Below are positions 4,159 to 37,738 of a DNA stretch of 38,278 nt, one piece after another. Location: IMG/VR virus record IMGVR_UViG_3300020195_000080, positions 1 through 38,278 of that record; one strand, given 5' to 3'. A program made the translations under genes and the position numbers. Source of the stretch: a virus. How positions within the stretch are numbered: position 1 is the first letter of the stretch; every line of letters begins with the position of its first letter. The notes below the pieces were generated by a model. The model was not told where the DNA came from, made no database searches, and worked only from the letters and a program-made list of their open reading frames with translations.

Positions 4159-5906
4159 TGGCGGCGAAGAACTCAAACAGTTCAATTTCTAAACGAAAGA
4201 AGTTTGAGATCCTACGGTCTCAGCTTGAAACCGAGCGCGCATCGTTTCTCTCTGTCTGGCGAGAGCTTGGCGATCACATCCTTCCCATGCGTCCACGCTT
4301 TACAACTTCAGAGAACAATCGCGGAGAACGCAAGAATCAGAAGATCATAAACTCCACCGCAACACTCGCAGCTCGCACACTTCGTTCTGGAATGATGAGT
4401 GGAGTAACTTCACCAGCGCGCCCATGGTTCAGACTCGCGGTCCCTGATCCAAGTCTTATGGAAGCCGGTCCAATTAAAGACTGGCTCTACATTGTCAGCG
4501 AACGAATGAGCGCTGCTTTCTTAAAATCGAATCTCTATAACGTTCTTCCAATCATCTATGGCGACATGGGCGCATTCGGCACCGGCGCAATGATGGTTGA
4601 AGAAGATATTGATAACGTCCTGCACTTTTATGCGTTCCCGGTCGGCTCCTTTTCAATTGCGGCTAACGATAAGGGCAGAGTCGACGTCTTCACTCGCGAC
4701 TTTAGAATGACCGTGCGTCAACTTGTACAACGCTTTGGAAAACGAGATCCATCAGGCCAGATCATTTGGGACAACTTCTCGCCGCAAGTTCGAAACCAAT
4801 ATGATCGTGGTGAGTTAGAATCTTGGATTGAAGTCGCCCACGTTATCCAACCAAACGAAGATCACGACGATTCAAAGCTTCACTCTAAGTTCAAGAAGTA
4901 CCTCTCTTGCTATTATGAGCGCGGCCAAAGCCAGGGCTCTTCGTCATCTGATGATGACCGAGTTCTTAGAGAGATGGGGTACGACTATTTCCCAGTCCTT
5001 TGCCCGCGCTGGGAAGTAACGGGCGAAGATGTCTACGGGACTGAATGCCCGGGGATGATGTCGTTGGGCGACAACAAAGCCCTTCAGGTCATGGAAAAGC
5101 GGAAGATGCAGGCCGTTGAAAAGATGGTGAACCCACCGATGGTTGCGCCAACTTCAATGCGCAATGCGAAGACGTCACTGCTCCCCGGTGATGTGTCGTT
5201 CTCTGATGAACGTGAAGGCACTCGAGGCTTCAGACCAGCACACGAAATCAATCCAAGGGTTGTAGAATTAAACGACGATATCTCTCGATACGAGAACCGC
5301 ATACAGCGCTGCTTTTATGCAGACCTTTTCTTGATGCTGCAAAACGATTCTCGGTCAAACGTCACCGCTCGCGAGATCGAAGAGCGACATGAAGAAAAGC
5401 TCTTAGCTCTTGGCCCTGTACTTGAGCAGCTCAACCAAGATCTCTTGGATCCATTGATCGACATCGCCTTCATTATAATGGAGCGCCAAGGTCAATTGCC
5501 CGAACCACCTCCAGAGATTCAAGGCACAGCGCTTCGAGTTGAATACATATCAATCATGGCTCAAGCGCAGAAGCTTCAAGGCATCGCAAGCTTAGAGCGC
5601 TTTGTCGGTATCGTTGGACAGATCGCACAGTTTAAACCAGGCGCTCTCGATAAACTCGATGAAGATCAAACGATCGATGTGTTCGCTGATCGTCTCTCGA
5701 TTCAGCCGGGCATTGTTAAGAGTGACGATCTTGTTGCGCAGATTCGTCAAGCTCAGCAGCAAGCGCAACAAGCAGCCCAAGCGACTCAGACTATTCAAGC
5801 CGGGGCCTCGGCTATGAAAGACTTAAGCCAAGCCAATGTATCTGAAGACAACGCTTTAAACAGACTTATCGAAAACGCGAACGCTGGGCAGCTCGTCCAG
5901 CAGTGA
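4158..5906 (+). CDS. portal (head-to-tail connecting) protein
   Basis: The portal forms the dodecameric ring at the packaging vertex through which DNA enters and leaves. This protein of 582 residues matches the head-tail connecting family of T7 gp8-like portals. Evidence includes the N-terminal FEILRSQLETERASFLSVW, the motif SGMMSGVTSPARPWFRLAV, the stem-region sequence AFGTGAMMVEEDID, SNVTAREIEERHEEKLLALGP and a glutamine/alanine-rich C terminus (QIRQAQQQAQQAAQATQ). Length is normal for the family, and the position after terminase is standard. The stop is followed by a 5-base gap and a GAGGTAATTT ribosome binding site for the next gene. Confidence 0.93.
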   Translation: MAAKNSNSSISKRKKFEILRSQLETERASFLSVWRELGDHILPMRPRFTTSENNRGERKNQKIINSTATLAARTLRSGMMSGVTSPARPWFRLAVPDPSLMEAGPIKDWLYIVSERMSAAFLKSNLYNVLPIIYGDMGAFGTGAMMVEEDIDNVLHFYAFPVGSFSIAANDKGRVDVFTRDFRMTVRQLVQRFGKRDPSGQIIWDNFSPQVRNQYDRGELESWIEVAHVIQPNEDHDDSKLHSKFKKYLSCYYERGQSQGSSSSDDDRVLREMGYDYFPVLCPRWEVTGEDVYGTECPGMMSLGDNKALQVMEKRKMQAVEKMVNPPMVAPTSMRNAKTSLLPGDVSFSDEREGTRGFRPAHEINPRVVELNDDISRYENRIQRCFYADLFLMLQNDSRSNVTAREIEERHEEKLLALGPVLEQLNQDLLDPLIDIAFIIMERQGQLPEPPPEIQGTALRVEYISIMAQAQKLQGIASLERFVGIVGQIAQFKPGALDKLDEDQTIDVFADRLSIQPGIVKSDDLVAQIRQAQQQAQQAAQATQTIQAGASAMKDLSQANVSEDNALNRLIENANAGQLVQQ

Positions 5907-7180: not shown

Positions 7181-8026
7181 TTGGGCTTTGCGTCGTTCAA
7201 AGAATTCAGAGAAGCCGTTGTCGATGGTGGCAAAAACCACTTCGCATCGTTTCGTAAAACCTCCGCCATCGTTACGACGGCCGGGGTTTGGTGCGATCTC
7301 TCGACGACGCCAGGTCATCCGGTAACAAATTTCTATGCGAGCACGCCACTTGCTGCCGCAACACTTCTCGCGAGAGAAGGCATTCAACATGGATCTGATC
7401 AAACGCCCGATAAAAAGTTTTTAAAGCGTTTAACCGCAATGAGTTCGCTCGCGCGGGTCAATCTTTTACTCATGGACTATCTTCTTTATTATCCGTTTAT
7501 CGACGGCGACGCGGCTGAAGAACAACTCTTCGATAACACCGTAACACTTCCACGTTTTACAACTGGGGATGGTGTTCAAGCTTTTGTTGTATCGCAAGGC
7601 GCCTTCACTGGTGGCGCTCGGTTCTATATTCGCTATACGAATCAAGACGGCGTTACAAACAGAACAAGCGCTACTTGCACGAGTAATTCGACCGCTGTGT
7701 CTGGGGAACTTATCACGTCTGGTGTCGCGGCTGGGAACTTCGGCTGGAACATTCCGCTGCAACAAGGTGATTCCGGGATTCGATCGGTCGAGGGCTTCAC
7801 ATTCTTGACCGCCAATGGTGGCATTTTTGCGCTTGTGCTCGCTGTGCCGCTCGGCTCACTCGCAATTCGCGAAGCCAATGTACCCGCAGAAAAAGACTTC
7901 ATAACTGAAAACGGGCTAGCGCTGCCCGAAATTAAAGACGGCGCGTACTTAAATTTTTTGGCATTGCCGAGTGGCTCACTAGCCACTGTCCCAGTGTATG
8001 GGTCTATCGGCGTGGTATGGGGTTAA
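7181..8026 (+). CDS. probable virion protein, paralogue of the next gene
   Basis: A TTG start (7181) is supported by an AAGGGG ribosome binding site and by the match of its first residues MGFASFKEF to MGFSSADDM of the following protein. The 281-residue product shares several blocks with its neighbour: LSTTPGHP versus LSTLPGSP, a YYPFID versus AYPYLN segment, TLPRFTTGDGVQAFVVS versus TLPRYTSGAGVKAFVVS, and QQGDSGIRSVEGFTFLTANG versus a matching later block. I do not recognise an enzyme motif. Two copies beside other beta-rich proteins suggest virion surface or tail components. Confidence 0.7.
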   Translation: MGFASFKEFREAVVDGGKNHFASFRKTSAIVTTAGVWCDLSTTPGHPVTNFYASTPLAAATLLAREGIQHGSDQTPDKKFLKRLTAMSSLARVNLLLMDYLLYYPFIDGDAAEEQLFDNTVTLPRFTTGDGVQAFVVSQGAFTGGARFYIRYTNQDGVTNRTSATCTSNSTAVSGELITSGVAAGNFGWNIPLQQGDSGIRSVEGFTFLTANGGIFALVLAVPLGSLAIREANVPAEKDFITENGLALPEIKDGAYLNFLALPSGSLATVPVYGSIGVVWG

Positions 8027-16811: not shown

Positions 16812-18491
16812 GTGCCAGTAGTGCCAAGATATGAACAACAGGTCCAACAGTCAGGGCTTCCGAGCGTAAGAGTTCGGGAGTCTGCTCCTGTTGAAGCGTT
16901 CGGTGGAGGCCAAGCGGCGGCAGGCATTGCTGCCATTGGCGATCTTGCGATGAAGGCCAATAGCCTTATCATGCAAGAAAAGCAGAAGGCCGATGACATC
17001 GCGGCCTTTGATAGCATCACAAGACTCAAAGAAAAGAAGATGGATCTTCTCGTAAATGAAAAGACCGGGGCCTTAAATCAAAAAGGTAAGAACGCATTTG
17101 GTTTGCCTGACACCGTACCGCAAGAGTTCGATAAGTACGGCCAAGAAGTAATTGATGGCTTAGGTAACGATCAGCAGAGAGAGCTTGTGCGCAGGCATCT
17201 TGCAAACGAACATGCTGACATCAATGACAAGCTTCAGGTTCACGTCGCTCGCGAGCGTGAGAGCTATGACAAGCAAGTCACAACCGATGGTGTAAAGACA
17301 CTGCAAAACGAAGCGCTGTTAAACTATCAAGACGAACGGGTAGTCAAAAGCAATCTCGGTCTAATGCAGGCAGCGATCATGAAAGCTGGCGAGCGAAATG
17401 GCGTGCCGGTTGAGGCCGCTGTTCAAGAAGAAACCGCAAGAGTTCACGAGTCGATCATTGATCGGCACCTTGCACACGGGAACGATCTCGCGGCGAAAGC
17501 ATACTTTGAAAAAAATAAGACTCAGCTTGGCGCCCGATTAGAAGATGTCGAGAAGGTTCTTGAAGCCGAAGGAAGCCGGGGCGAAAGTCAGCGGCAAACA
17601 GCTTTGATTGTAAATCAGACGGGCGATCTAGGTCATGCTCTCGAGCTAGCAAGGAATATCGAGAATCCAAACATTCAAGACATGACGGTCTCGCGAGTAA
17701 AAGAACACTTTGGCGCCAAGAAAGCAGCGATCGAAGAGCGAAGCGAGAATCAATTAAACGGCGTGCTGAAACAGCTTGAACTATCTAAGGGACGCTATGA
17801 GTTTCCAAGTAAAATGCTTGGCACCATGAAGACTGAACACATCAAAGCATTTGAATTGAGAAAAAAGCAGCTTATGTCTGGTGAAGATGCTGCGCCAAAC
17901 GGCATGGACTTCTATGATCTGCGCACACGGGCCGCAACTCCTGAGCTCCAAGATGGTTTTAAAAATGAGTATCTTTTAAAGTACGCAGCAAAGATGCCGC
18001 CAAGCGAGCTGTCAAAACTCATCGAGATTCAAGCCGATCTGCGAAAAGGATCTGGAAAGTCCGACAAGATCCTAGGTCAGTTTAGAACTCAGAACGAAAC
18101 CATCAACTCAGTTCTAACTGCACACAAGATTGATGTGAGTCCAAAGCCAGGCTCTGCGGACTCAACTCTTGTTGAAAAGATGCGAACGCAAGTTGAACTT
18201 GATTCAGTTCAGTTCGCGAGCGATACCGGCAAAGCTCCAACTAATGCAGACATACAAAAAATGGCTGAGCGATATCTAGTTAAAGTAACTCTCAAAGAGC
18301 ACTGGTACGGCGACGAGAAGGCCCCCCGCCTGCTGCTTCGACTAAACCAATCAGGCACAATCAAGTTTGGCGATATCCCGTCTGGTGACCGAGATGAAGT
18401 TGAGGCGGCTCTCAGGCTCGAAAGAGCGCCGGTGTCGCCCGAGGCAATCGAGAAGCGGTACAATCTCTATATGAACAGGAAGCGGAAGTAG
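16812..18491 (+). CDS. internal virion protein, T7 gp15-like position
   Basis: A GTG start with AGGGGTGAT upstream gives 559 residues. The N terminus (VVPRYEQQVQQSGLPSVRV, EAFGGGQAA) is found in many ejection proteins; the remainder is long charged helices (ADDIAAFDSITRLKEKKMDL, HVARERESYDK, NQLNGVLKQLELSKGRYEF) with no enzymatic motif. Length is somewhat shorter than T7 gp15. It probably forms the periplasmic tube of the DNA-ejection complex. The stop overlaps the GTG of the giant protein, which supports co-translation and complex formation. Confidence 0.75.
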   Translation: MPVVPRYEQQVQQSGLPSVRVRESAPVEAFGGGQAAAGIAAIGDLAMKANSLIMQEKQKADDIAAFDSITRLKEKKMDLLVNEKTGALNQKGKNAFGLPDTVPQEFDKYGQEVIDGLGNDQQRELVRRHLANEHADINDKLQVHVARERESYDKQVTTDGVKTLQNEALLNYQDERVVKSNLGLMQAAIMKAGERNGVPVEAAVQEETARVHESIIDRHLAHGNDLAAKAYFEKNKTQLGARLEDVEKVLEAEGSRGESQRQTALIVNQTGDLGHALELARNIENPNIQDMTVSRVKEHFGAKKAAIEERSENQLNGVLKQLELSKGRYEFPSKMLGTMKTEHIKAFELRKKQLMSGEDAAPNGMDFYDLRTRAATPELQDGFKNEYLLKYAAKMPPSELSKLIEIQADLRKGSGKSDKILGQFRTQNETINSVLTAHKIDVSPKPGSADSTLVEKMRTQVELDSVQFASDTGKAPTNADIQKMAERYLVKVTLKEHWYGDEKAPRLLLRLNQSGTIKFGDIPSGDRDEVEAALRLERAPVSPEAIEKRYNLYMNRKRK

Positions 18492-21400
18492 TGGCGATTA
18501 ACGAGTACGAGCAGCAGGTTGAAGATATGGTTGTGCCTGATCCGAGGCCTAACCGCTTTCTTGGTTTAGATGACGAGCCTGCGCCAAACTTAGAGCGTGC
18601 CGTTCAAACTGCAATAACAGCGACAGCCGACACTCAGCCAGATCGATTTGCAGAAGTGCTGAAACTATCGAAACGCTATAAGCTTGCGCCCGAACTCGCT
18701 GAGCGAAATTACGATGAACTCAAAAAACACTCGGAAGCTGAGGCCGTTCAGCCAGGCCGAATGGCATCTGAACGCCAGAGCTTATCGGAGTGGCTTGCTA
18801 ACCCTGAGAATATGGGCGTTGCAAAAGATGATCTCGATCACGTCAACGATCTAAACGACACGTTGGAAGAGCATGGCCTTCTTGATTCCATGTACACAGC
18901 CCTTGACTCTGGCGCGGCTCGAATGAACTCAAATCTTTTGAAAACACCGGCATTCGTTCTTGATGCTTATAACAACTATCTTGTGAACCCACTTAATCGC
19001 GCGCTCGGCTACGGTGATGTGCAATCGCCCGAATGGCTTCGGAAGAACGCAGCGACCGAGTATTATGATAAAGCTTCCGAAGCTTATACGTCCCAGCTTC
19101 CTGAAATGAACACCTCAATCATTGATGAAATTGGAAAAGGAAACTTCGCAAAAGCGGGAAGAGCCCTTGCAATCCAGTTCACTGCGAATGCTCCACAGCA
19201 AGCTCTGACTGCGGCGTTTGCTGCGGCAGGGATGCCTTATGTCGGTTTAGGTTTAGCCGGGGCGACGACGGCTGCTGATGTCAATGCGCGCGGACGTGAG
19301 GCGGGCCAAGATCCAACGAGCGCCGTGAACAATGCGATCCTACAAGGCTCTGCTGAAATGCTTTTTGAAAGCTTGGGAACGATTCCGCTTATCAAGAAGT
19401 GGGAAGCCGTGATCACCAAGCAGCACGGTAAGGATGTTTGGCATAGTGTCGCGAAGGATTTCACTAAGACTCTCGCTGCTTCTGTTGCGCAAGAAGGCTC
19501 TGAAGAGATGGCAACCCAAGCCGTGCAAGACATGAGTGACTATACAACTGGTGCGAACCCAGATCTTACTTTGAAGCAAAGCTTCGAGAATATCGGAAAT
19601 GCAGGTGTTATCGGCGGGTTCTCTGGTGGAGCAATGACCGCACCCGTCGGTATGATCGGCGGCTATGCTCGCCTTCATCAGATGAACGAGTCAAAGCGCT
19701 CGGTCGATTTCATGACAGCGCTTGGTGAGAAGACTCAAGAATCAAAACTCAGGAAGCGACTACCGGAAGCGCATAAAAATCTTGTTGAGAAGCTCACCAA
19801 AGATGGACCTGTTGAAAATATTTTAATGCCGGTCGAAGCGGTTCAGGAATACTTTCAGTCTAAAAACCTTGATTCAGTTCAAGAGATGCAAAAGCTAGGG
19901 CTCACTAAAGAGTTCTCTGAAGCTGTGGCCACTGGCTCTGATGTGAAGGTTCCGCTTGCGACCTGGCTTCAGAGTGCTGTTGATACCGAGCATTTTAATG
20001 GTTTGAAAAATGATATAAAGTTTAAACCGGACAGTCTTACCGCAAACGAAGCCAAAGCCGAGCAGTCGCAAAACAAGGCTGACCTTGAGCTTCTATCCAA
20101 CGAAGACTTAGATACTAAGCCAGAGACTGAACTCACGCCTGGAGAAGTTAGAGCAAAGAGTGCGCGCGCTGTTGGCGAAAATGTCCGGCAACAGCTTCTG
20201 GCAATGAACAATCCTTTGATTGGACCAAACGAAGCAAAGCAAAACGCTGTGCTTTATACGAAGTTTTCGATGTCGATGGCGGCTAGAACAAATAAGACTC
20301 CAGAAGAAATCTTCAAGCGTTACGGTTTAAAGATCAATACGAGTGATGGTGCCGAGGTTATTATCCCTCCTACAGATGGCCGAGTAGCAGCGCAGTACAA
20401 TCAGGGATCGCGCGGCGATTGGAAAAAAGAAGGCTATTCGATTTCAAGCGAGACCGATGCTAGTGATCCAACACTTCACAGGGTCACGGCAAAAGACAAA
20501 GCCGGCAACATCGTTGGCTCGGCTGAATTCGTAACCCAAGAAGATGCACCTGACTTTATTCGTCCAGCGAAGGATTCGTTCTCGCTTGAACCTACGGTGC
20601 AGGTGAACGAAGCGCATCGGCGTAAAGGGATCGCAACAGCAATGTACGAAGCGGCGGAAGCGGCGACGGGTAAAAAGATCACCAATCGTCGGAAGCAAAC
20701 ACGCACCGCAAACGGCAACGCACTCTGGTCTCAGAACAACAGGCCGTTCGGATCTCGTCAACTCTTCCAATCCCAAGCCGCAGAGAATGTCGCGGAAGTT
20801 TATCCTGCGAAGCCCGCACCGCCGACATTCTCAAAACTAATTCAGACCGTCGAACAAAAGATGGGCGGCTCCGCTGATCCTGCGCAGATTCGCGGGATGC
20901 TCAAAGAGATCAAGCCAGAGGAAATTAAATGGCTTGGCGTTGATGGGTTCCTTGAAGGCAAAGAGCGCGTCACCAAGAAAGAGTTCTTAGACTTCCTCGG
21001 CGCCAATGATTTGCAGATTCAGGATGTGACTTCGGACGCGGCCGAGTTCAAAGAACAAACCCTTCCAGGCGGCAAGAACTACCGCGAGGTTTTGTTCACG
21101 CTTCCGATGAAGCCCGTTGATGTGCCAGCCGTCTACACGGCACGAGATGCGTGGAAAGCTGCAACAGATAAAATTAGCAAGGCGACGCTTAAGGTTATCC
21201 AGAATGGCGGTGGTTGGCAGAAGGCGAAAGAGATCGCCCTTGAAAAAGGTTACATCACGCAGGCTGATGTTGACGCCGAACGCGATTTGAAAACCGAGTA
21301 CGAGGCCGCTGCGCAGAGATCGGCGAATCAACAAAGGGCGAACTACACGTCTCGCCACTACAAAGAAAAGAATATCCTCGCGCACGTCAGGCTCAACGAC

Positions 21401-24400
21401 CGCACCGATGCTGATGGGAAGAAAGTTCTCTTCGTTGAAGAGATTCAAAGTGATTGGCATCAAGCGGGGCGGAAGAAGGGTTATACCGACGAGGCTTTGA
21501 CTGCTAGAAAAGCAGAAGTCCGAAAACAAGTCGAAGCCCTTCCGCTCAAGAATCTTTTCGAATACTCAAATGCCAGAGAGATATTGGCTGCCGGTGGTTC
21601 TCAAGAGTTAGCCGACGACTACATGAGTTTATTCATTGGCAAAAACTCGGACACAGTCCCCGACGCCCCACTTAAAAAAACCTGGCACGAGTACGCGATG
21701 AAACGCATTCTCCGCATGGCGGCTGAAGGCGGGTATGACCGCGTTGCGTGGACGACCGGCGAACAGCAAGCCGAGCGGTATGATATTTCAAAGCAAGTCG
21801 ATGAAGTTATTTCGAGCAAGAACGATGACGGGACCTGGGCGATTCGAGTGATTCGCGAGGGACGTGTGATCGAGAATGTCCCATCCGTTGCTGAAGCAAA
21901 GCTAGAAGATCAACTCGGCAAGGACCTAGCAAAGAAGATCATCGCAGACGAAGGCAAGAAAACATGGGTCGGTTCAAAGGCAGAATTCTCGTACACTGGC
22001 GTTGATCTCAAAGTCGGCGGCGAGGGCATGAAGGGTTTCTACGACAAGATCCTCGTCGACTACACCCGCAAGTTCGTGAAGAAATTCGGCGCGACGGTTG
22101 GGGAAACTGAGATCCAGTCCAACAATAACGACTTAGTTTACTATGTAAGCAAGAACACTCAGGGTAATTTTGGAGTATTTAAATCAGATCCAAATTCAAG
22201 TTCAATCCACTCGTTGGTGCAAGGGCGGGCATTCAAAACCAAGGCCGAGGCCGAGGCGTTTAGAGAAACTATCGGGTCGGGCACAAAAGTCCACTCAGTC
22301 GACATCACGCCGGAACTTAAGAAGACCGCGACAGAGGAAGGCTTCTCACTCTTTCAATCGAACAAAAGCACGCTTGGTTTTATCTCGCAGCTTGAGACCG
22401 AAGTTTCTAAAATGGATTTTAAAGAGATGCCGGCAGGCGACCTTGCCAACCGCATCAAGAATCTTCCCGGCATTAAGGGCGAGGAGCTTGAGCACACTGG
22501 TGTTTTGGACTGGCTCAAGGGCGTTGAAGGAAAGGTCTCGAAGACGGCGGTCGCTCAGTTCTTAAAAGATAACGGCGTGAAGATCGAGCAGGTCGTTCTT
22601 TCGGACGATTTCAAGCATGCCGATAAAAGCGAAATCTTGGGGGAAACCGACTGGCAGGAGCCCGAGCGGGATCACGAAAGCGACGATTACCACTTTAAAA
22701 ATGAGATGGAGTATTTCAGTGACGATTATTGGAACGAAGAAAGGTCGTCCGATCTTCGCGCGGAGCTTGTCGACGACCACACTGACGAAGACGGCAACGT
22801 CGACGAAAGCTCGCTCGACAGTGCGATAGAGAAAGAGAAAGAGGATCGCGCCAAAAATCTGGCGCTAGAGGCGGTCGAGTCCGATGACTATCCTAACGCC
22901 GTCTATACGGTAAAAGACGCTGCGACCGGCTGGACGCTCAGCGGCTCCGATGATAACGGGTGGTACTCGAGCGAGGTCGAGGACGGGATGGGCTACAATC
23001 TCGAAGAAGCTAAAGTAAAACTTTTGCCTCACATGATCGAGGCGGGAAAGCTCGGCGGGCTGGTCGCCGATTTCATAAAGCCATCTGACATCAGATGGGC
23101 CGCTGGTCGTTCTGAATCAGAGCCGAACGCGGGCGATCTCACGAAAAGAGGAAATGCGCTTTTCGAAAAAGACAAAGATCGATTCATAAAGGACGCAAGA
23201 GAAATACACGGCTGGCAGCTTGAAGACGAGAACTACACGAAGGCTAAATACGAAAAGGATGTTCTTGAAGAAGCGAAAAACGCCGCTCATCATGAGGCCC
23301 GCGAAACTTACAACGACCACACCAATGAAAAAAACAGCGTCATGTTTCCGATTAAGGCTAGACTTATAAGAGGCCGCGTCATCGGGAATGATGTCTCGGG
23401 ATATTTGTTTAAGATTGCCGGGGAATCAGTCCCGCTCGCGGCGAAAACTATCGACGCGGCCAAAGCCGAAGCGATCGAAGTTCTTATCGACAAAAAAATG
23501 ATCTCGCCAGAAAAGACCGCAGAGCTTGCCGTCGAAGGCGCAGCGCCAGACGTCAACGCGCCAACTGGAAAGACCAGGTTTAAGAAGTTTGTAAAGAAGG
23601 GCGGCGAGAACTACCGCGAGATTCTTCTCACGACGCCGAACCCTGAGGGCACAAAGCCTTACGTTTACGAGAGTCACTTTAGTAACCACGCGAATATCTT
23701 AGCGCACTTACGACTCACTGACCGTGTCGACCTAAACGGGCGAAAGACTCTGGTTGCCGACGAGATCCAATCCGACACGCATCAGCAAGGTCGCGAATTT
23801 GGTTACAATGGTGACGACAAGCTTTCGCCGGAAGAGCGCAAGGTGAAACTTCTGGAAATAGACGAAGCGCTTAATTTCACAAGCATCGAAATTGATAAAA
23901 CTATAGACAAAATGCGGATCGCTAACAGTGTCGCTCAAGCCGGGAAACTCGCAAAGGACTTAGCCGCCCTCCGCCTCAAGGCCGATGAACTGCTCGCCGA
24001 AAAGAATTCCGTCTCTGAAAATGACGCCGTCCCAAACTTCCCGTTTAAAAACACGGAAGCATGGTCCGCCCTCACTCTTAAGCGTCTGATCTTGATGGCT
24101 GTGGAACAAGGTTATGACGCCGTTGCATGGATGCCGGCATCGACCCACATCGAACGCTGGGGCACCGACAACATCTCTTGGAACAAAACCGATGACGGCA
24201 CGTTCAGCGTAGGCTCGCTTCGACAGCGCGGCGGTATGGCTGATGGCATCGACATCGAAGCGAGGGCTCGCGCGAGCGGCGAGCAGCTTGAGCGCAATGG
24301 CGAAACAGTCACTTCAAAAGAGGATCTCGCAAAAGTTATTACAGCCACTTTGCACCGCGAACGAAACGCTCGATCGCTCGGAAGCCTAACCGAATCGGTC

Positions 24401-27400
24401 TGGAAAGAGATGCAAGAAAAACCATCGGGCGAAAAGAATCCTCGCGCCGAAGGAATGAAGTTCTTTTACGACAAGCTTATTCCAAAAGTCGCGGGCCAGA
24501 TCATCAAGAAACTTGATCCGGCTGCGAAGATCGAAGTCGCGAAGTTTGACTTGAAGGACGACGGAGATATCGAAGCCCTTCAGATCGTTATCACGCCGGC
24601 GATGAAGGCGAAAGTCGAGCAGGGGATATCACTCTTTCAATCTGGCGACAAAGCCGACACCGCCAATGCCAGGATCGATATTAACTCCGATAAAACAATG
24701 AACATCGATCTCTTCAAGGGTAAGGCGAACCTAAGCACTTTCCTGCACGAGACCGGCCATTTTTATTTAGAGGTGATGCAGGATCTATCTAAAGATTCAT
24801 CAGCGTCTCAAAGTTTAAAAGATGACTACCAGAAAGTCCGCGAGTGGCTTGGCGCTAAAGACGGCGAGCTATTAAGTGTTGATCAGCACGAGCAGTTTGC
24901 GCGCGGCTTTGAGCTTTACTTAGCTAAAGGCGAAGCTCCAACTCCAGAGCTTCGAGCAGCGTTTGCGCACTTTAAAGTCTGGCTGATCAGCGTCTATAAG
25001 AACTTAGCTCGCCTCAAAGTCGAACTCACTCCTGAGATCAAGGAAGTGATGGACCGTCTCGTCGCAACAGACGAACAGTTAGCTGATGCGGTCAAAGGCC
25101 ACGCGCTGCCGCTTTACACAGATCCAATCGCAGCCGGGATGAATCCAGAGCGTGCAGAGAAGTACGCTGAGGCAATCAGAGAAGCGCACCTTGCGGCAGA
25201 AGAGCAGATCACTACGAAAGTGATGGCGCATGAAATGCGAAAGCGCCACGCGGCGTATCGAGAACAAGAAAAAGAAGTTGAAGCGCGAGTTGAGACTGAG
25301 GCCAATGGCCAAAAGATTTACCGCGCACTTTCAATTCTTCAGCGCGGGAAGATGCCTGATGGCTCAGAGCTTCCGGCTGGTGTTGGTGCGATTAAACTTG
25401 ATCGACAATCGATCGTTGATCAATACGGCAAAGAGTTTCTCGACAGGCTCCCGCGTCCATATTTATATGCGCGCGAGGGCGGCATTCATCCAGAGCAAGC
25501 AGCAGAGCTTTTAGGCTTTGAATCAGCCGACGATCTTCTTAATCAGATAGCGAACTCGCCTGATAAGAAGACTTACATTGAGCAGCAAACCAAAGCTCGA
25601 ATGGATGTTCTCTATCCTGATGCAGTGATGAACGAGACGCTCTCTCAAGATACAATCGACGCAGTTCTAAATGAAAAACAAGGGCGCGTTTTAGAGCTAG
25701 AACTTGAGCATCTATTTGAAAACAATAAGCCACTAGTTAAAGAAGCCATTCGCCACGTCGCTCGTAGACCCGTTAAGCGTGCAGACGTTAAAGTACAAGC
25801 CGTTGCGATGATTGCAAGTAAAACCATCGGCGAGATTAAGCCCTACACCTTTGAACGTGCGGCGGCGAAGGCCGCAAAACAAGCCGGCATATTACTCGCA
25901 AAAGGTGATGTTCGCGGAGCGTATGAAGCAAAACGAAAAGAGCTTCTAAACCTTGAACTCTTTAGAGCCGCTACTGATGCGCAGGAATTTGTTGAAAAGT
26001 CTCAGGAGAGATTTAATAAACTAAAAGGTAAAGACGCTGATCTTGCGAAGACTCGTGATATTGATCTGATTAATGTCGCTCGCGCGATCTTGGCTCAACA
26101 TGGCCTAGGACAATCAGAGAGGTCGGCTGTCGAGTACCTGTCGTCGATGCAGAAGTACGATCCAGACGCGTATCAATCAGCGATTGCGATCATCGAAAAC
26201 TCTGGGCTTCGTCCCGGTCCTTATAAAGAAATTAGCTTCGATGACTTTACTGTTATGGCCGATACCGTAGCCGCCCTTTGGGATCTCTCGCGATCGAGCC
26301 GCATGATGGTCATCGACGGTAAGAGAATGGAAAAAGATGAGATCATTGGACACCTCTCATCTCGCATTGATGCCGTTAAAGAACCGCATCAAAAACTCGG
26401 TTACGATAAAGCCGTGACCCAGTGGGAAAAGACTAAGCTTCAGATCTTGGGTGGCAGAGCTGCGCTGAGAAGGGTTGAGTCGTGGGTGCACGCAATCGAT
26501 GGCGAAGTGACGAACGGCACATTTAGAAAGTTCGTTTGGCAGCCGATTTCTGATGCCGTTGTGAAGTACCGACAAGAGAAAGTGCGCGTGCTTACGCAGT
26601 ATCAGGATCTGGTAAAGGCGTGGGCGCCGGGCGCTAGCACTGCTCCAATAAGAGCGGAAAACTTAGACTACACCTTTGCAGGAAAAGCGGAGCTCGTAGC
26701 TGCAATACTTCACACTGGGAACGAATCAAACAAACAAAAGCTTCTTCTTGGTCGCGAGTGGGGATCAAAGTTTGCTGATGGTTCACTTGATACATCTCGG
26801 TGGGATGCCTTCATCTTAAAGATGGTTCGAGATGGCGTGCTCACGAAAGCTGACTACGACTTTGCGCAAGGCGTTTGGGATTTACTCGAGACCATGAAGC
26901 CCGATGCGCAAAAAGCCCACAAGGCAATGTATGGGTTTTACTTTAATGAAGTGACGGCAAACGCTGTGCAAACACCATGGGGCGAGTACCGCGGCGGCTA
27001 TGTTCCGGCAATCGTTGATCAGACGATGGTTGAAGATGCCGCCATTCGCACCGAACAGGATAACCTTACTAAAGCAAATAACTCCTTTATGTTTCCAACT
27101 ACTGGCCGCGGCTTTACGAAGTCACGGGTTGAGCAGTATGTCGCTCCACTTGCGCTCGACATCCGAATGGTCGGGAGCCACCTAGATAAAGTATTGCGAT
27201 TCATCAACATCGAGCCGCGGGTTAAAGAAGTTGGCCGCATCATGATGGATAAGGGATTCAGAGGTAAGCTTGCGGAGGTCGATCCAACGATCGCAAGTGA
27301 GATGATTATCCCTTGGCTTCAGCGCGCAGCTCAACAGATGGTATCAACTCCTTCTCGCGGTCAGGCGGGAAAGCTCTTAGATCGGTTCGCCAAGAACCTT

Positions 27401-28483
27401 CGAAGCCGTGCTGGTCTTCAGACGATGTTAGGGAATGTCACCAACACCATCCAGCAGATCACTGGTTTCACGATTGCAGCAGTGCAAGTAAAGCCAAAGC
27501 ATTTGCGAAATGCGTTCGTGCAATACATTAAATCACCAGCGGCTTACGCAAAGATGGTGAATGAGAAATCGCCTTTCATGGTAACCCGCACCGCGACTCA
27601 GGTGATGGAAGTAAACAAGATCGTTGATGAGATCTCAATCAATCCATCGAAATTTGAAAAGCTCCAGGACTTCGTTAAAGAGCATGGTTACTTCCTGCAA
27701 AGTGCGGCGCAAGGCTTTGTTGATTTAAGTGTCTGGGGCGGCGCCTATGAGCAGGCAGTTGAAGCTGGTCACGATGAGGCGACGGCTGTTCGATCCGCAG
27801 ACGCTGCGGTCAGAGAGACCCAAGGCTCAATGAATCCAGAAGACGTTTCGCGTTTCGAGGCCGGCTCACCACTGTCGAGACTCTTTACGATGTTCTACTC
27901 TTACTTTAATATGCAGGCGAATTTGCTTGGCACTGAGTTCACGAAAACCATCAGGGACTCTGGACTCAGAAAAGGTGCTGGGCGCTTAGTCTACATCTAT
28001 ACAATGGGCTTCATGCTGCCGGCATTCCTGAGTGACCTGCTTGTTCAGTCGATGGGGAATGGCATCGATGAAGATGATGACGATCAGTATCTAGACGATC
28101 TCTTGGCCACGTTCTTCACTTCGCAGTTTAGTACGGCGACAGCAATGTTCCCGATCATAGGGCCATCGGTTAAAGCTAGCGTTAATGCGTTTAACGATAA
28201 AGCCTATGACGATAAGATCACGACAAGCCCAGCAATCTCTATGGTTGAGAGTGCGGTCTCTGCGCCGCATTCTGTTTACGAAGCGATTGCAAACGATGGA
28301 TCAAAGAAGAAAGCTGCGCGCGATGTCCTAACTGCAATTGGTTTAATGAGCGGAATCCCAACGGGTCCGATCTTAAAGCCGCTCTCTTACATGGCCGATG
28401 TTACAGAAGGCCGAGCAGAGCCGACAGGGCCAATTGACTATACCAGAGGATTAGTGACCGGAAAACCAGGAAGCGTCCAATAG
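18491..28483 (+). CDS. giant polyvalent ejection protein (3330 residues)
   Basis: This corresponds in position to T7 gp16, the largest injected protein, but is over twice as long and looks like a phage polyvalent protein. Visible parts: helical N-terminal region with an amphipathic or membrane-like stretch near residues 236-262; a GNAT-like segment with VNEAHRRKGIATAMYEAA (about 705-722); two related large modules (about 780-1290 and 1295-2051), each containing ENYREIL-like, NILAH.RL.DR, EIQSD.HQ.GR..GY and GYD.VAW blocks; a zincin motif HETGH (2086-2090) with HEQFARGFELYL at 2133-2144; long helices; and a C-terminal polyvalent-type domain from about 2963. No lytic transglycosylase motif was recognised. 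It is probably ejected into the host; the separate activities are inference. Confidence 0.85.
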   Translation: MAINEYEQQVEDMVVPDPRPNRFLGLDDEPAPNLERAVQTAITATADTQPDRFAEVLKLSKRYKLAPELAERNYDELKKHSEAEAVQPGRMASERQSLSEWLANPENMGVAKDDLDHVNDLNDTLEEHGLLDSMYTALDSGAARMNSNLLKTPAFVLDAYNNYLVNPLNRALGYGDVQSPEWLRKNAATEYYDKASEAYTSQLPEMNTSIIDEIGKGNFAKAGRALAIQFTANAPQQALTAAFAAAGMPYVGLGLAGATTAADVNARGREAGQDPTSAVNNAILQGSAEMLFESLGTIPLIKKWEAVITKQHGKDVWHSVAKDFTKTLAASVAQEGSEEMATQAVQDMSDYTTGANPDLTLKQSFENIGNAGVIGGFSGGAMTAPVGMIGGYARLHQMNESKRSVDFMTALGEKTQESKLRKRLPEAHKNLVEKLTKDGPVENILMPVEAVQEYFQSKNLDSVQEMQKLGLTKEFSEAVATGSDVKVPLATWLQSAVDTEHFNGLKNDIKFKPDSLTANEAKAEQSQNKADLELLSNEDLDTKPETELTPGEVRAKSARAVGENVRQQLLAMNNPLIGPNEAKQNAVLYTKFSMSMAARTNKTPEEIFKRYGLKINTSDGAEVIIPPTDGRVAAQYNQGSRGDWKKEGYSISSETDASDPTLHRVTAKDKAGNIVGSAEFVTQEDAPDFIRPAKDSFSLEPTVQVNEAHRRKGIATAMYEAAEAATGKKITNRRKQTRTANGNALWSQNNRPFGSRQLFQSQAAENVAEVYPAKPAPPTFSKLIQTVEQKMGGSADPAQIRGMLKEIKPEEIKWLGVDGFLEGKERVTKKEFLDFLGANDLQIQDVTSDAAEFKEQTLPGGKNYREVLFTLPMKPVDVPAVYTARDAWKAATDKISKATLKVIQNGGGWQKAKEIALEKGYITQADVDAERDLKTEYEAAAQRSANQQRANYTSRHYKEKNILAHVRLNDRTDADGKKVLFVEEIQSDWHQAGRKKGYTDEALTARKAEVRKQVEALPLKNLFEYSNAREILAAGGSQELADDYMSLFIGKNSDTVPDAPLKKTWHEYAMKRILRMAAEGGYDRVAWTTGEQQAERYDISKQVDEVISSKNDDGTWAIRVIREGRVIENVPSVAEAKLEDQLGKDLAKKIIADEGKKTWVGSKAEFSYTGVDLKVGGEGMKGFYDKILVDYTRKFVKKFGATVGETEIQSNNNDLVYYVSKNTQGNFGVFKSDPNSSSIHSLVQGRAFKTKAEAEAFRETIGSGTKVHSVDITPELKKTATEEGFSLFQSNKSTLGFISQLETEVSKMDFKEMPAGDLANRIKNLPGIKGEELEHTGVLDWLKGVEGKVSKTAVAQFLKDNGVKIEQVVLSDDFKHADKSEILGETDWQEPERDHESDDYHFKNEMEYFSDDYWNEERSSDLRAELVDDHTDEDGNVDESSLDSAIEKEKEDRAKNLALEAVESDDYPNAVYTVKDAATGWTLSGSDDNGWYSSEVEDGMGYNLEEAKVKLLPHMIEAGKLGGLVADFIKPSDIRWAAGRSESEPNAGDLTKRGNALFEKDKDRFIKDAREIHGWQLEDENYTKAKYEKDVLEEAKNAAHHEARETYNDHTNEKNSVMFPIKARLIRGRVIGNDVSGYLFKIAGESVPLAAKTIDAAKAEAIEVLIDKKMISPEKTAELAVEGAAPDVNAPTGKTRFKKFVKKGGENYREILLTTPNPEGTKPYVYESHFSNHANILAHLRLTDRVDLNGRKTLVADEIQSDTHQQGREFGYNGDDKLSPEERKVKLLEIDEALNFTSIEIDKTIDKMRIANSVAQAGKLAKDLAALRLKADELLAEKNSVSENDAVPNFPFKNTEAWSALTLKRLILMAVEQGYDAVAWMPASTHIERWGTDNISWNKTDDGTFSVGSLRQRGGMADGIDIEARARASGEQLERNGETVTSKEDLAKVITATLHRERNARSLGSLTESVWKEMQEKPSGEKNPRAEGMKFFYDKLIPKVAGQIIKKLDPAAKIEVAKFDLKDDGDIEALQIVITPAMKAKVEQGISLFQSGDKADTANARIDINSDKTMNIDLFKGKANLSTFLHETGHFYLEVMQDLSKDSSASQSLKDDYQKVREWLGAKDGELLSVDQHEQFARGFELYLAKGEAPTPELRAAFAHFKVWLISVYKNLARLKVELTPEIKEVMDRLVATDEQLADAVKGHALPLYTDPIAAGMNPERAEKYAEAIREAHLAAEEQITTKVMAHEMRKRHAAYREQEKEVEARVETEANGQKIYRALSILQRGKMPDGSELPAGVGAIKLDRQSIVDQYGKEFLDRLPRPYLYAREGGIHPEQAAELLGFESADDLLNQIANSPDKKTYIEQQTKARMDVLYPDAVMNETLSQDTIDAVLNEKQGRVLELELEHLFENNKPLVKEAIRHVARRPVKRADVKVQAVAMIASKTIGEIKPYTFERAAAKAAKQAGILLAKGDVRGAYEAKRKELLNLELFRAATDAQEFVEKSQERFNKLKGKDADLAKTRDIDLINVARAILAQHGLGQSERSAVEYLSSMQKYDPDAYQSAIAIIENSGLRPGPYKEISFDDFTVMADTVAALWDLSRSSRMMVIDGKRMEKDEIIGHLSSRIDAVKEPHQKLGYDKAVTQWEKTKLQILGGRAALRRVESWVHAIDGEVTNGTFRKFVWQPISDAVVKYRQEKVRVLTQYQDLVKAWAPGASTAPIRAENLDYTFAGKAELVAAILHTGNESNKQKLLLGREWGSKFADGSLDTSRWDAFILKMVRDGVLTKADYDFAQGVWDLLETMKPDAQKAHKAMYGFYFNEVTANAVQTPWGEYRGGYVPAIVDQTMVEDAAIRTEQDNLTKANNSFMFPTTGRGFTKSRVEQYVAPLALDIRMVGSHLDKVLRFINIEPRVKEVGRIMMDKGFRGKLAEVDPTIASEMIIPWLQRAAQQMVSTPSRGQAGKLLDRFAKNLRSRAGLQTMLGNVTNTIQQITGFTIAAVQVKPKHLRNAFVQYIKSPAAYAKMVNEKSPFMVTRTATQVMEVNKIVDEISINPSKFEKLQDFVKEHGYFLQSAAQGFVDLSVWGGAYEQAVEAGHDEATAVRSADAAVRETQGSMNPEDVSRFEAGSPLSRLFTMFYSYFNMQANLLGTEFTKTIRDSGLRKGAGRLVYIYTMGFMLPAFLSDLLVQSMGNGIDEDDDDQYLDDLLATFFTSQFSTATAMFPIIGPSVKASVNAFNDKAYDDKITTSPAISMVESAVSAPHSVYEAIANDGSKKKAARDVLTAIGLMSGIPTGPILKPLSYMADVTEGRAEPTGPIDYTRGLVTGKPGSVQ
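20829..24643 (+). repeat. tandem duplicated protein module within the giant gene
   Basis: Module A (about 20829-22360) and module B (about 22374-24643) share their block order. Each begins with a region ending in a short helical domain (KKEFLDFLGANDLQIQDV versus KTAVAQFLKDNGVKIEQVV) and each ends with (G)(F/I)SLFQS. Module B is longer because of an acidic insert (near 22620-23300). Identity is at protein level only, so the duplication is old or the modules were acquired separately. Confidence 0.75.
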
Positions 28484-36859: not shown

Positions 36860-37738
36860 ATGGTCAGAATCAGAACAGTAAAGCCAGAGGTGTATCGGCA
36901 CGAGAAACTCTACGATCTAGAAAAGAAAACCGGGCTTCCTGTGCGTCTCTTTTGGATCGGACTCTTTGCCGTCTGCGACCGCGAGGGCCGCTTTAAGTGG
37001 CGACCAGGCTCGATCAAGCTGGACATCCTTCCGTTCGATATCGTCGATGTCTCTTTGATCTTGGATGAGCTTTGGGGCGCGGGTTTTATCACTCGTTACC
37101 GTTCCAAGACTGACGAATTTGGCTGCATCCCGACGTTTCGCGATCATCAAGTGATCAACGGACGCGAAGCCCAATCAAAATTGCCGGCGTGGTCAGATCA
37201 AAACTGTGAGGTTCTGACGTGTGGCCCACGCGTCACGGAAACGCACGTGCATGCACGTGGGGAACAGAAGGGAAGGGAAGGGAAGGGAACAGAAGGGAAG
37301 GGAACAGAAGGGAAGGGAAGGGAAGCACGCGTGGTCACGCTTGCACCCGTTCCCGATAAATCGGGAAGTGTGCCGACGGCGGGTCGGCCATTGAATCTTT
37401 CTGAACCAGTAAATCCACAGAACGAGATTGAACTCTTGAACCTTCTCCCTCGCCACGTTCTTGAAAAGTGGTCGAGGCTTCATCCAGATGCTGAGTTTTT
37501 GAACAGGGAGTTAATCAAGGCGTTTGGTTACTATCGACTCAACCCAAGGAAGTGCCCGCAGAATCGTCGAGGATGGGCCCAGGCGCTCTCAAGCTGGTTC
37601 GAGCGAGATTGGCCCAAGCATGCGGCTCGCGTTCCAGGGCAGCGCCCTGACGAGGCCAAACTCAACGACTGGATCAAGGCTGGCCAATCACCATCAACAT
37701 CCGGTCAGGGGTTTCTAGAAATCGGGGCGGGAACGTGA
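36860..37738 (+). CDS. phage replication initiator, O-like
   Basis: The 292-residue protein opens with VRIRTVKPEVYRHEKLYDLE and FWIGLFAVCDREGRFKWRPG, IKLDILPFD and LWGAGFITRY, the winged-helix N-terminal pattern common in phage replication proteins. A basic glycine-rich linker (about 133-156, KGREGKGTEGKG) encoded by iteron-like DNA follows, then a C-terminal domain with HPDAEFLNRELIKAFGYYRL and QNRRGWAQALSSWFERDW. Its layout resembles lambda O (DNA-binding domain, origin in the gene, C-terminal contact region). GGGGGG precedes the ATG. The stop overlaps the next gene's start. Confidence 0.78.
   Translation: MVRIRTVKPEVYRHEKLYDLEKKTGLPVRLFWIGLFAVCDREGRFKWRPGSIKLDILPFDIVDVSLILDELWGAGFITRYRSKTDEFGCIPTFRDHQVINGREAQSKLPAWSDQNCEVLTCGPRVTETHVHARGEQKGREGKGTEGKGTEGKGREARVVTLAPVPDKSGSVPTAGRPLNLSEPVNPQNEIELLNLLPRHVLEKWSRLHPDAEFLNRELIKAFGYYRLNPRKCPQNRRGWAQALSSWFERDWPKHAARVPGQRPDEAKLNDWIKAGQSPSTSGQGFLEIGAGT
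37244..37322 (+). other. candidate replication origin inside the initiator gene
   Basis: A perfect 16-bp palindrome CACGTGCATGCACGTG (37244-37259) is followed by three copies of a 20-base purine-rich unit starting GGGAACAGAAGGGAA (37260, 37285, 37300). CACGCGT elements lie on both sides. The tract contains at least nine GGG runs; 37270-37287 is G3A2G3A2G3A2G3, a quadruplex-capable pattern. Confidence 0.55.

Follow-up and report, generated by a model that had tools for sequence, protein, structure and literature searches.

A putative replication origin within the initiator gene of a phage family, built of iteron-type cores and a GGGAA tract

Background

The replication origin of phage λ is established to lie within its initiator gene O (PMC7466680). 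In Pseudomonas phage MD8, too, repeats were noted in a gene whose product is O-like, and the origin was suggested to lie there (PMC8508860). The 13-mers of the RK2 DUE, the (G/A)ATCA repeats of Vibrio cholerae ori2 and the DnaA-trio are single-strand-binding repeats situated by initiator sites (PMC10797057).

We analysed a 38,278-bp virus record from IMG/VR without terminal repeats (the whole of this stretch is called the window here). Judging from its sequence and that of its relatives, positions 37227-37332 are most likely the replication origin of the phage, an intragenic origin of the λ-like iteron type with a GGGAA tract as its second module; we give this reading a probability of about 0.82.

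Results and discussion

The initiator gene and its surroundings

The initiator gene (Table 1) lies near the right end of the window, with an integrase gene, an excisionase-like gene and a RecT-like gene 5' of it. Its product matches PHROG replication-initiation families, the λ O family not being among these matches; a Pfam search with it found no family and a PDB sequence search no match. The N-terminal domain is predicted by AlphaFold2 with pLDDT mostly >90, and a Foldseek search of the PDB with the initiator returned ArsR-type winged helices as weak matches only. The downstream gene product likewise has weak matches only, to phrog_9804 (E 0.005) and phrog_2289 (helicase loader, E 0.037); in relatives, DnaC-like, P-like or DnaB-like genes adjoin the initiator gene. 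Elsewhere in the window, a single ORF of 3,330 aa (18491-28483), flanked by an endolysin-like gene and a tail-fibre-like gene, takes up about a quarter of the record.

Table 1. Features of the initiator region (positions in the window)
Feature	Position	Strand	Remarks
Replication initiator gene	36860..37738	+	292 aa; phrog_16167 (E 7e-37), phrog_1408 (E 1e-23)
N-terminal domain, residues 1-118	36860..37213	+	Predicted winged helix; candidate iteron-binding domain
Disordered-linker coding region, carries the element	37220..37414	+	Residues ~121-185; low pLDDT
Upstream iteron core CACGCGT	37227..37233	+	ACGCGT at 37228; core repeated in relatives
Palindrome CACGTGCATGCACGTG	37244..37259		Two CACGTG iteron-type cores, 10 bp apart
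Second module, GGGAA/CAGAA pentamer tract	37260..37325	+	66 bp, purine-rich on coding strand; candidate opening element
CACGCGT core 3' of the tract	37326..37332	+	ACGCGT at 37327
C-terminal helical domain, residues ~186-275	37415..37684	+	AlphaFold2
Downstream gene, 174 aa	37735..38259	+	Possible helicase-loader partner; weak PHROG matches

The element in the window

An earlier note on this DNA had drawn attention to a perfect 16-bp palindrome in the initiator gene, and it is exact; CACGTGCATGCACGTG is the only palindrome of at least 14 bp in the window. By itself it is weak evidence, because about 0.6 palindromes of at least 16 bp are expected in the window by chance. The window has two CACGTG sites, both here, and five ACGCGT sites, of which two flank the adjoining tract. 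The array upstream of the tract is degenerate, consisting of one CACGCGT and two CACGTG cores with spacings of 17 and 10 bp.

The tract itself is made up of 13 pentamers (10 GGGAA and three CAGAA) and has a GC content of 54–58%. The note had described three 20-base iterons here, spaced by 25 and 15 bp; the copies of GGGAACAGAAGGGAAGGGAA are indeed exact (at 37260, 37285 and 37300, and absent elsewhere on both strands of the window), but they are phases of one pentamer array of period 5, which is 0.80 identical to itself when shifted by 5 and 0.88 when shifted by 15. When up to three mismatches are allowed, GGGAAGGGAAGGGAA has 12 matches against 1.1 expected, 11 of them in this array. The tract encodes RGEQKGREGKGTEGKGTEGKGREA, a low-complexity linker as the note had it, with pLDDT mostly <50 in the AlphaFold2 model. 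Synonymous recoding of the window's linker gives an expectation of 2.6 GGGAA and 0.18 ACGCGT, against 11 and two present, and the GGGAA count was reached in none of 300 recodings. The tract is far above chance in its near-matches and, by the recodings, above what the encoded peptide requires.

Relatives and selection at the DNA level

Queries with single proteins against viral and genome contigs found no relatives, and alignment queries were needed. An alignment query of IMG/VR gave 80 loci and a tblastn search with the N-terminal domain gave 70 phage records, which together yielded 78 non-redundant genes (domain identity <85%). These were divided according to the residues that follow a conserved HQ, by a simple motif rule and not by a tree, into groups IN (48 genes, including that of the window), PH (23) and IGKE (6), with one other gene.

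The comparison with the linker DNA of relatives, proposed by the earlier note as a check, came out in its favour, with repeats present in the same linker. In the 48 IN genes this DNA typically has several ACGCGT-type cores 11 bp apart and then a GGGAA/GGAAA tract, which stands at the same place in nearly all of them; among 88 distinct elements there are mostly three or four cores with the tract after them. Successive ACGCG cores in the IN linkers are mostly 11 bp (86 cases) or 10 bp (13 cases) apart, and a repeat unit of 11 bp is not a multiple of three; the cores are spread equally over the three reading frames (45/47/47), where they encode TR, RV or DA. When each codon was redrawn from the synonyms used in the same gene, 19.5 ACGCGT were expected in the IN linkers against 139 observed (z ~30, a score which, like the other z-scores here, overstates independence, the relatives being linked by descent), and 77.5 GGGAA against 195. 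Because the element's own codons are part of the pool, this test is conservative. No excess of cores is seen in the C-terminal part of these genes. These comparisons show that it is the DNA repeats, rather than the encoded peptide, that evolution has kept. An array of initiator-site-like repeats that bears the marks of DNA-level selection is found in the relatives, the window's own array being reduced.

The 21-mer CACGTGCATGCACGTGGGGAA of the window (the palindrome and the GGGAA that follows it) is present in four other contigs encoding three distinct proteins, every time at the same place in the homologous gene. In L228 it is preceded by a full 11-bp ACGCGT array, and in L020, whose domain is 65% identical, it comes after an apparent HNH domain inserted in the linker. 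The likelier iterons are the upstream CACGYG cores, including the two within the palindrome (ACGYG cores recur about 11 bp apart in relatives), and the G-rich 20-mers that had been taken for iterons are probably the second module.

The HNH-like insert of L020 lies 5' of the element, and similar inserts appear to be present in L092 and L094; this may account for the annotation of some relatives as HNH endonucleases (phrog_5718). The p19 protein of Myxococcus phage Mx8 (L013) has an extra linker stretch, VYFVRAESGGPVKIGTA..., which we take to resemble a GIY-YIG/T5orf172-type domain.

In the other groups the layout is kept and the letters of the repeats are changed. Some members have GGGAAACATT- or GGGAAGCACCCG-type repeats with a GGAA tract, while Pseudomonas and enterobacterial phages have TGATTCC repeats (the complement of GGAATCA) preceded by GCAC/GTGC or CCTAGG motifs. 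In L053 the tract is on the opposite strand and encodes a different peptide; a search for this inverted form found one contig only, that of L053. Other, independent collections support the pattern. In a plasmid collection, all four of the IN-group relatives examined carry the element (Shinella, Paraburkholderia, Bradyrhizobium and Endozoicomonas). The loci from bacterial genomes gave z 5.0 for ACGCG and z 9.5 for GGRAA, values diluted by other sub-groups that the loose motif rule mixed in. The 6.2-kb "plasmid" NZ_CP081787 was a possible natural minireplicon, which we rejected because the record is linear and made up of phage genes, so that it is probably a phage fragment.

Quadruplex potential and duplex stability

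Could the G-rich tract aid origin opening by forming a DNA or RNA G-quadruplex or an R-loop on the coding strand? The window has overlapping canonical motifs on that strand (four runs of at least three G with short loops), as the earlier note had seen, and coding-strand G-clusters are present in the IN and IGKE groups. The canonical three-tetrad motif is not conserved, however, being found in 19 of 48 IN, two of six IGKE and none of 23 PH genes; what is near-constant in IN and IGKE is the purine-rich tract of GGGAA/GGAAA type. In addition, the L053 tract lies on the opposite strand and the PH group has repeats of the TGATTCC type. A quadruplex is thus possible in the window but is not the conserved feature, and we consider this explanation unlikely. 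The comparisons bear out the earlier note on the kind of element, which is origin-like, would act in cis and is located within the initiator gene where λ O has its origin; the note's choice of iterons was probably wrong, and it gave the quadruplex too much weight.

Averaged over 43 genes, the tract is the least stable stretch of duplex from -300 bp to +390 bp, close to the most stable stretch, the iterons; its mean GC content is >0.5 despite this relative minimum. In the window alone, no clear drop in stability sets the tract apart from the flanking DNA, and GC skew has no clear switch at the element; both points, like the degenerate array of the window, count against the origin reading. The single-strand folding of the element is not exceptional (z -1.5).

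A second cluster of cores and a displaced element

Half of the IN genes (24/48) have a second cluster of at least two ACGCG cores, 11 bp apart, in the sequence that encodes the winged helix, about 40 to 18 codons before the conserved HQ (for example in L023, L036 and L052). There are 69 such cores against 19.6 expected under synonymous recoding (z 13.7). In most carriers this sequence encodes DFSRVLDALxTRGF, within the folded domain; the IN members that lack the cluster, including the window, have other residues at that place. The second cluster may serve as an operator or a looping partner, or may extend the origin.

We also searched IMG/VR for the pattern ACGCGT-N5-ACGCGT-N15..45-GGGAAGGGAA with no use of protein information. 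This gave at least 112 pattern starts in at least 80 loci (starts within one array are not independent), and for 110 of the 112 among the matches listed the ORF through the element carries the initiator N-terminal domain, so that among these matches the two-module pattern is almost exclusive to the initiator gene family. The two remaining starts are in L173 and L170. In L173 (about position 7500, reverse strand) an initiator gene is seemingly frame-broken by two extra 11-bp iterons relative to L021, although an assembly error is possible. In L170 the element is at 4243 of an 8.1-kb contig (4190-4350), about 3.3 kb downstream of the initiator gene, in a stretch with only a mechanical ORF of 111 aa and no initiator homologue; L044, the initiator gene on this contig (236-895), is followed by a DnaB-like gene and lacks the element in its linker. 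The modules therefore stay together as a unit of DNA and are not needed in the protein linker, and this contig would be a natural separation of a putative origin from its initiator.

These findings bear on the idea that the cores serve mainly as an operator for autoregulation of the initiator gene, or as its copy-control site, and not as an origin. Many initiators have binding sites in or close to their own gene, and the second cluster, lying in the coding sequence of the DNA-binding domain in half of the group, would suit such a role. Autoregulation leaves unexplained, however, both the constant presence of a GGGAA tract beside the array and the displaced copy downstream of the initiator gene, and an operator so deep within a gene would be unusual, so we think it quite unlikely. 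That the tract is a product of microsatellite slippage, tolerated in a disordered linker where the peptide is a charged spacer, agrees with the period of 5, the low complexity of the peptide and its predicted disorder; this is very unlikely in view of the GGGAA-type tracts that adjoin iterons in distant relatives, the tract kept in the displaced copy outside the initiator gene, and the tract of L053 with its other strand and different peptide. Finally, another cis-acting self-recognition sequence like the aba of BstA, also a short repeat-bearing DNA element, which overlaps the gene whose product it controls (PMC8585504), is extremely improbable for a gene that belongs to initiator families, is neighboured in relatives by genes for a helicase or a loader and carries an element whose layout matches the λ origin.

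A proposed mechanism and its significance

If the element is a replication origin, we infer initiator binding, tract opening and helicase loading as its steps. The N-terminal winged-helix domain would bind the CACGYG cores, which in relatives are about one helical turn apart, and assemble there; this assembly would destabilise the neighbouring GGGAA tract, with one of its strands then kept single-stranded; and the C-terminal domain and the downstream gene product would help to deliver the replicative helicase. At odds somewhat short of even, we tentatively suggest that these phages represent a widespread type of origin, opened at tandem GGGAA/GGAA repeats that serve as a single-strand signal in place of an AT-rich element. 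In half of the group this would be combined with a second array of iterons within the coding sequence of the initiator's folded DNA-binding domain, whose amino-acid sequence would there be set in part by the site that it binds.

We found no description of a GGGAA or ACGCGT element of this kind in the open-licence literature, nor, in open-licence papers, of a family-wide two-module rule, of GGGAA in the place of an AT-rich region, of a displaced copy or of the second cluster; earlier accounts may exist elsewhere. The VvAW1 genome paper mentions neither an origin nor repeats. The pattern offers a sequence rule for locating the origins of many uncultured temperate phages and prophages of Proteobacteria and other phyla, natural initiator-iteron pairs for tests of recognition, and a case in which a repeat that is not AT-rich may act as an opening element. 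It would also explain low-complexity peptides in phage proteins, such as GREGKGREGK and SLIPDSLIPDS, as by-products of DNA signals.

Comparison with known origins

With MD8 the likeness is in the repeats that its authors noted in the O-like gene; their paper describes neither a rule for the sequence nor an array of iterons nor a tract of GGGAA (PMC8508860). With RK2, ori2 and the DnaA-trio the locus shares a short tandem motif that adjoins the double-strand sites of the initiator, and the V. cholerae ori2 motif is contained in GGAATCA, the repeat of the PH group; those elements, however, lie in AT-rich DNA outside the initiator gene, whereas GGGAA, for which a single-strand role is proposed here, is not AT-rich. 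The λ iterons are 18-mers about 20–24 bp apart, whereas the cores here are of 5–6 bp at 10–11 bp, and the λ tract is A-rich where this one is GGGAA. In layout, nevertheless, the origins of λ and the Stx phages are like the present element, lying in the middle of the initiator gene with tandem iterons followed by a tract that is purine-rich on the coding strand (PMC7466680), a comparison which rests on the arrangement of the DNA, kinship of the proteins being no part of it.
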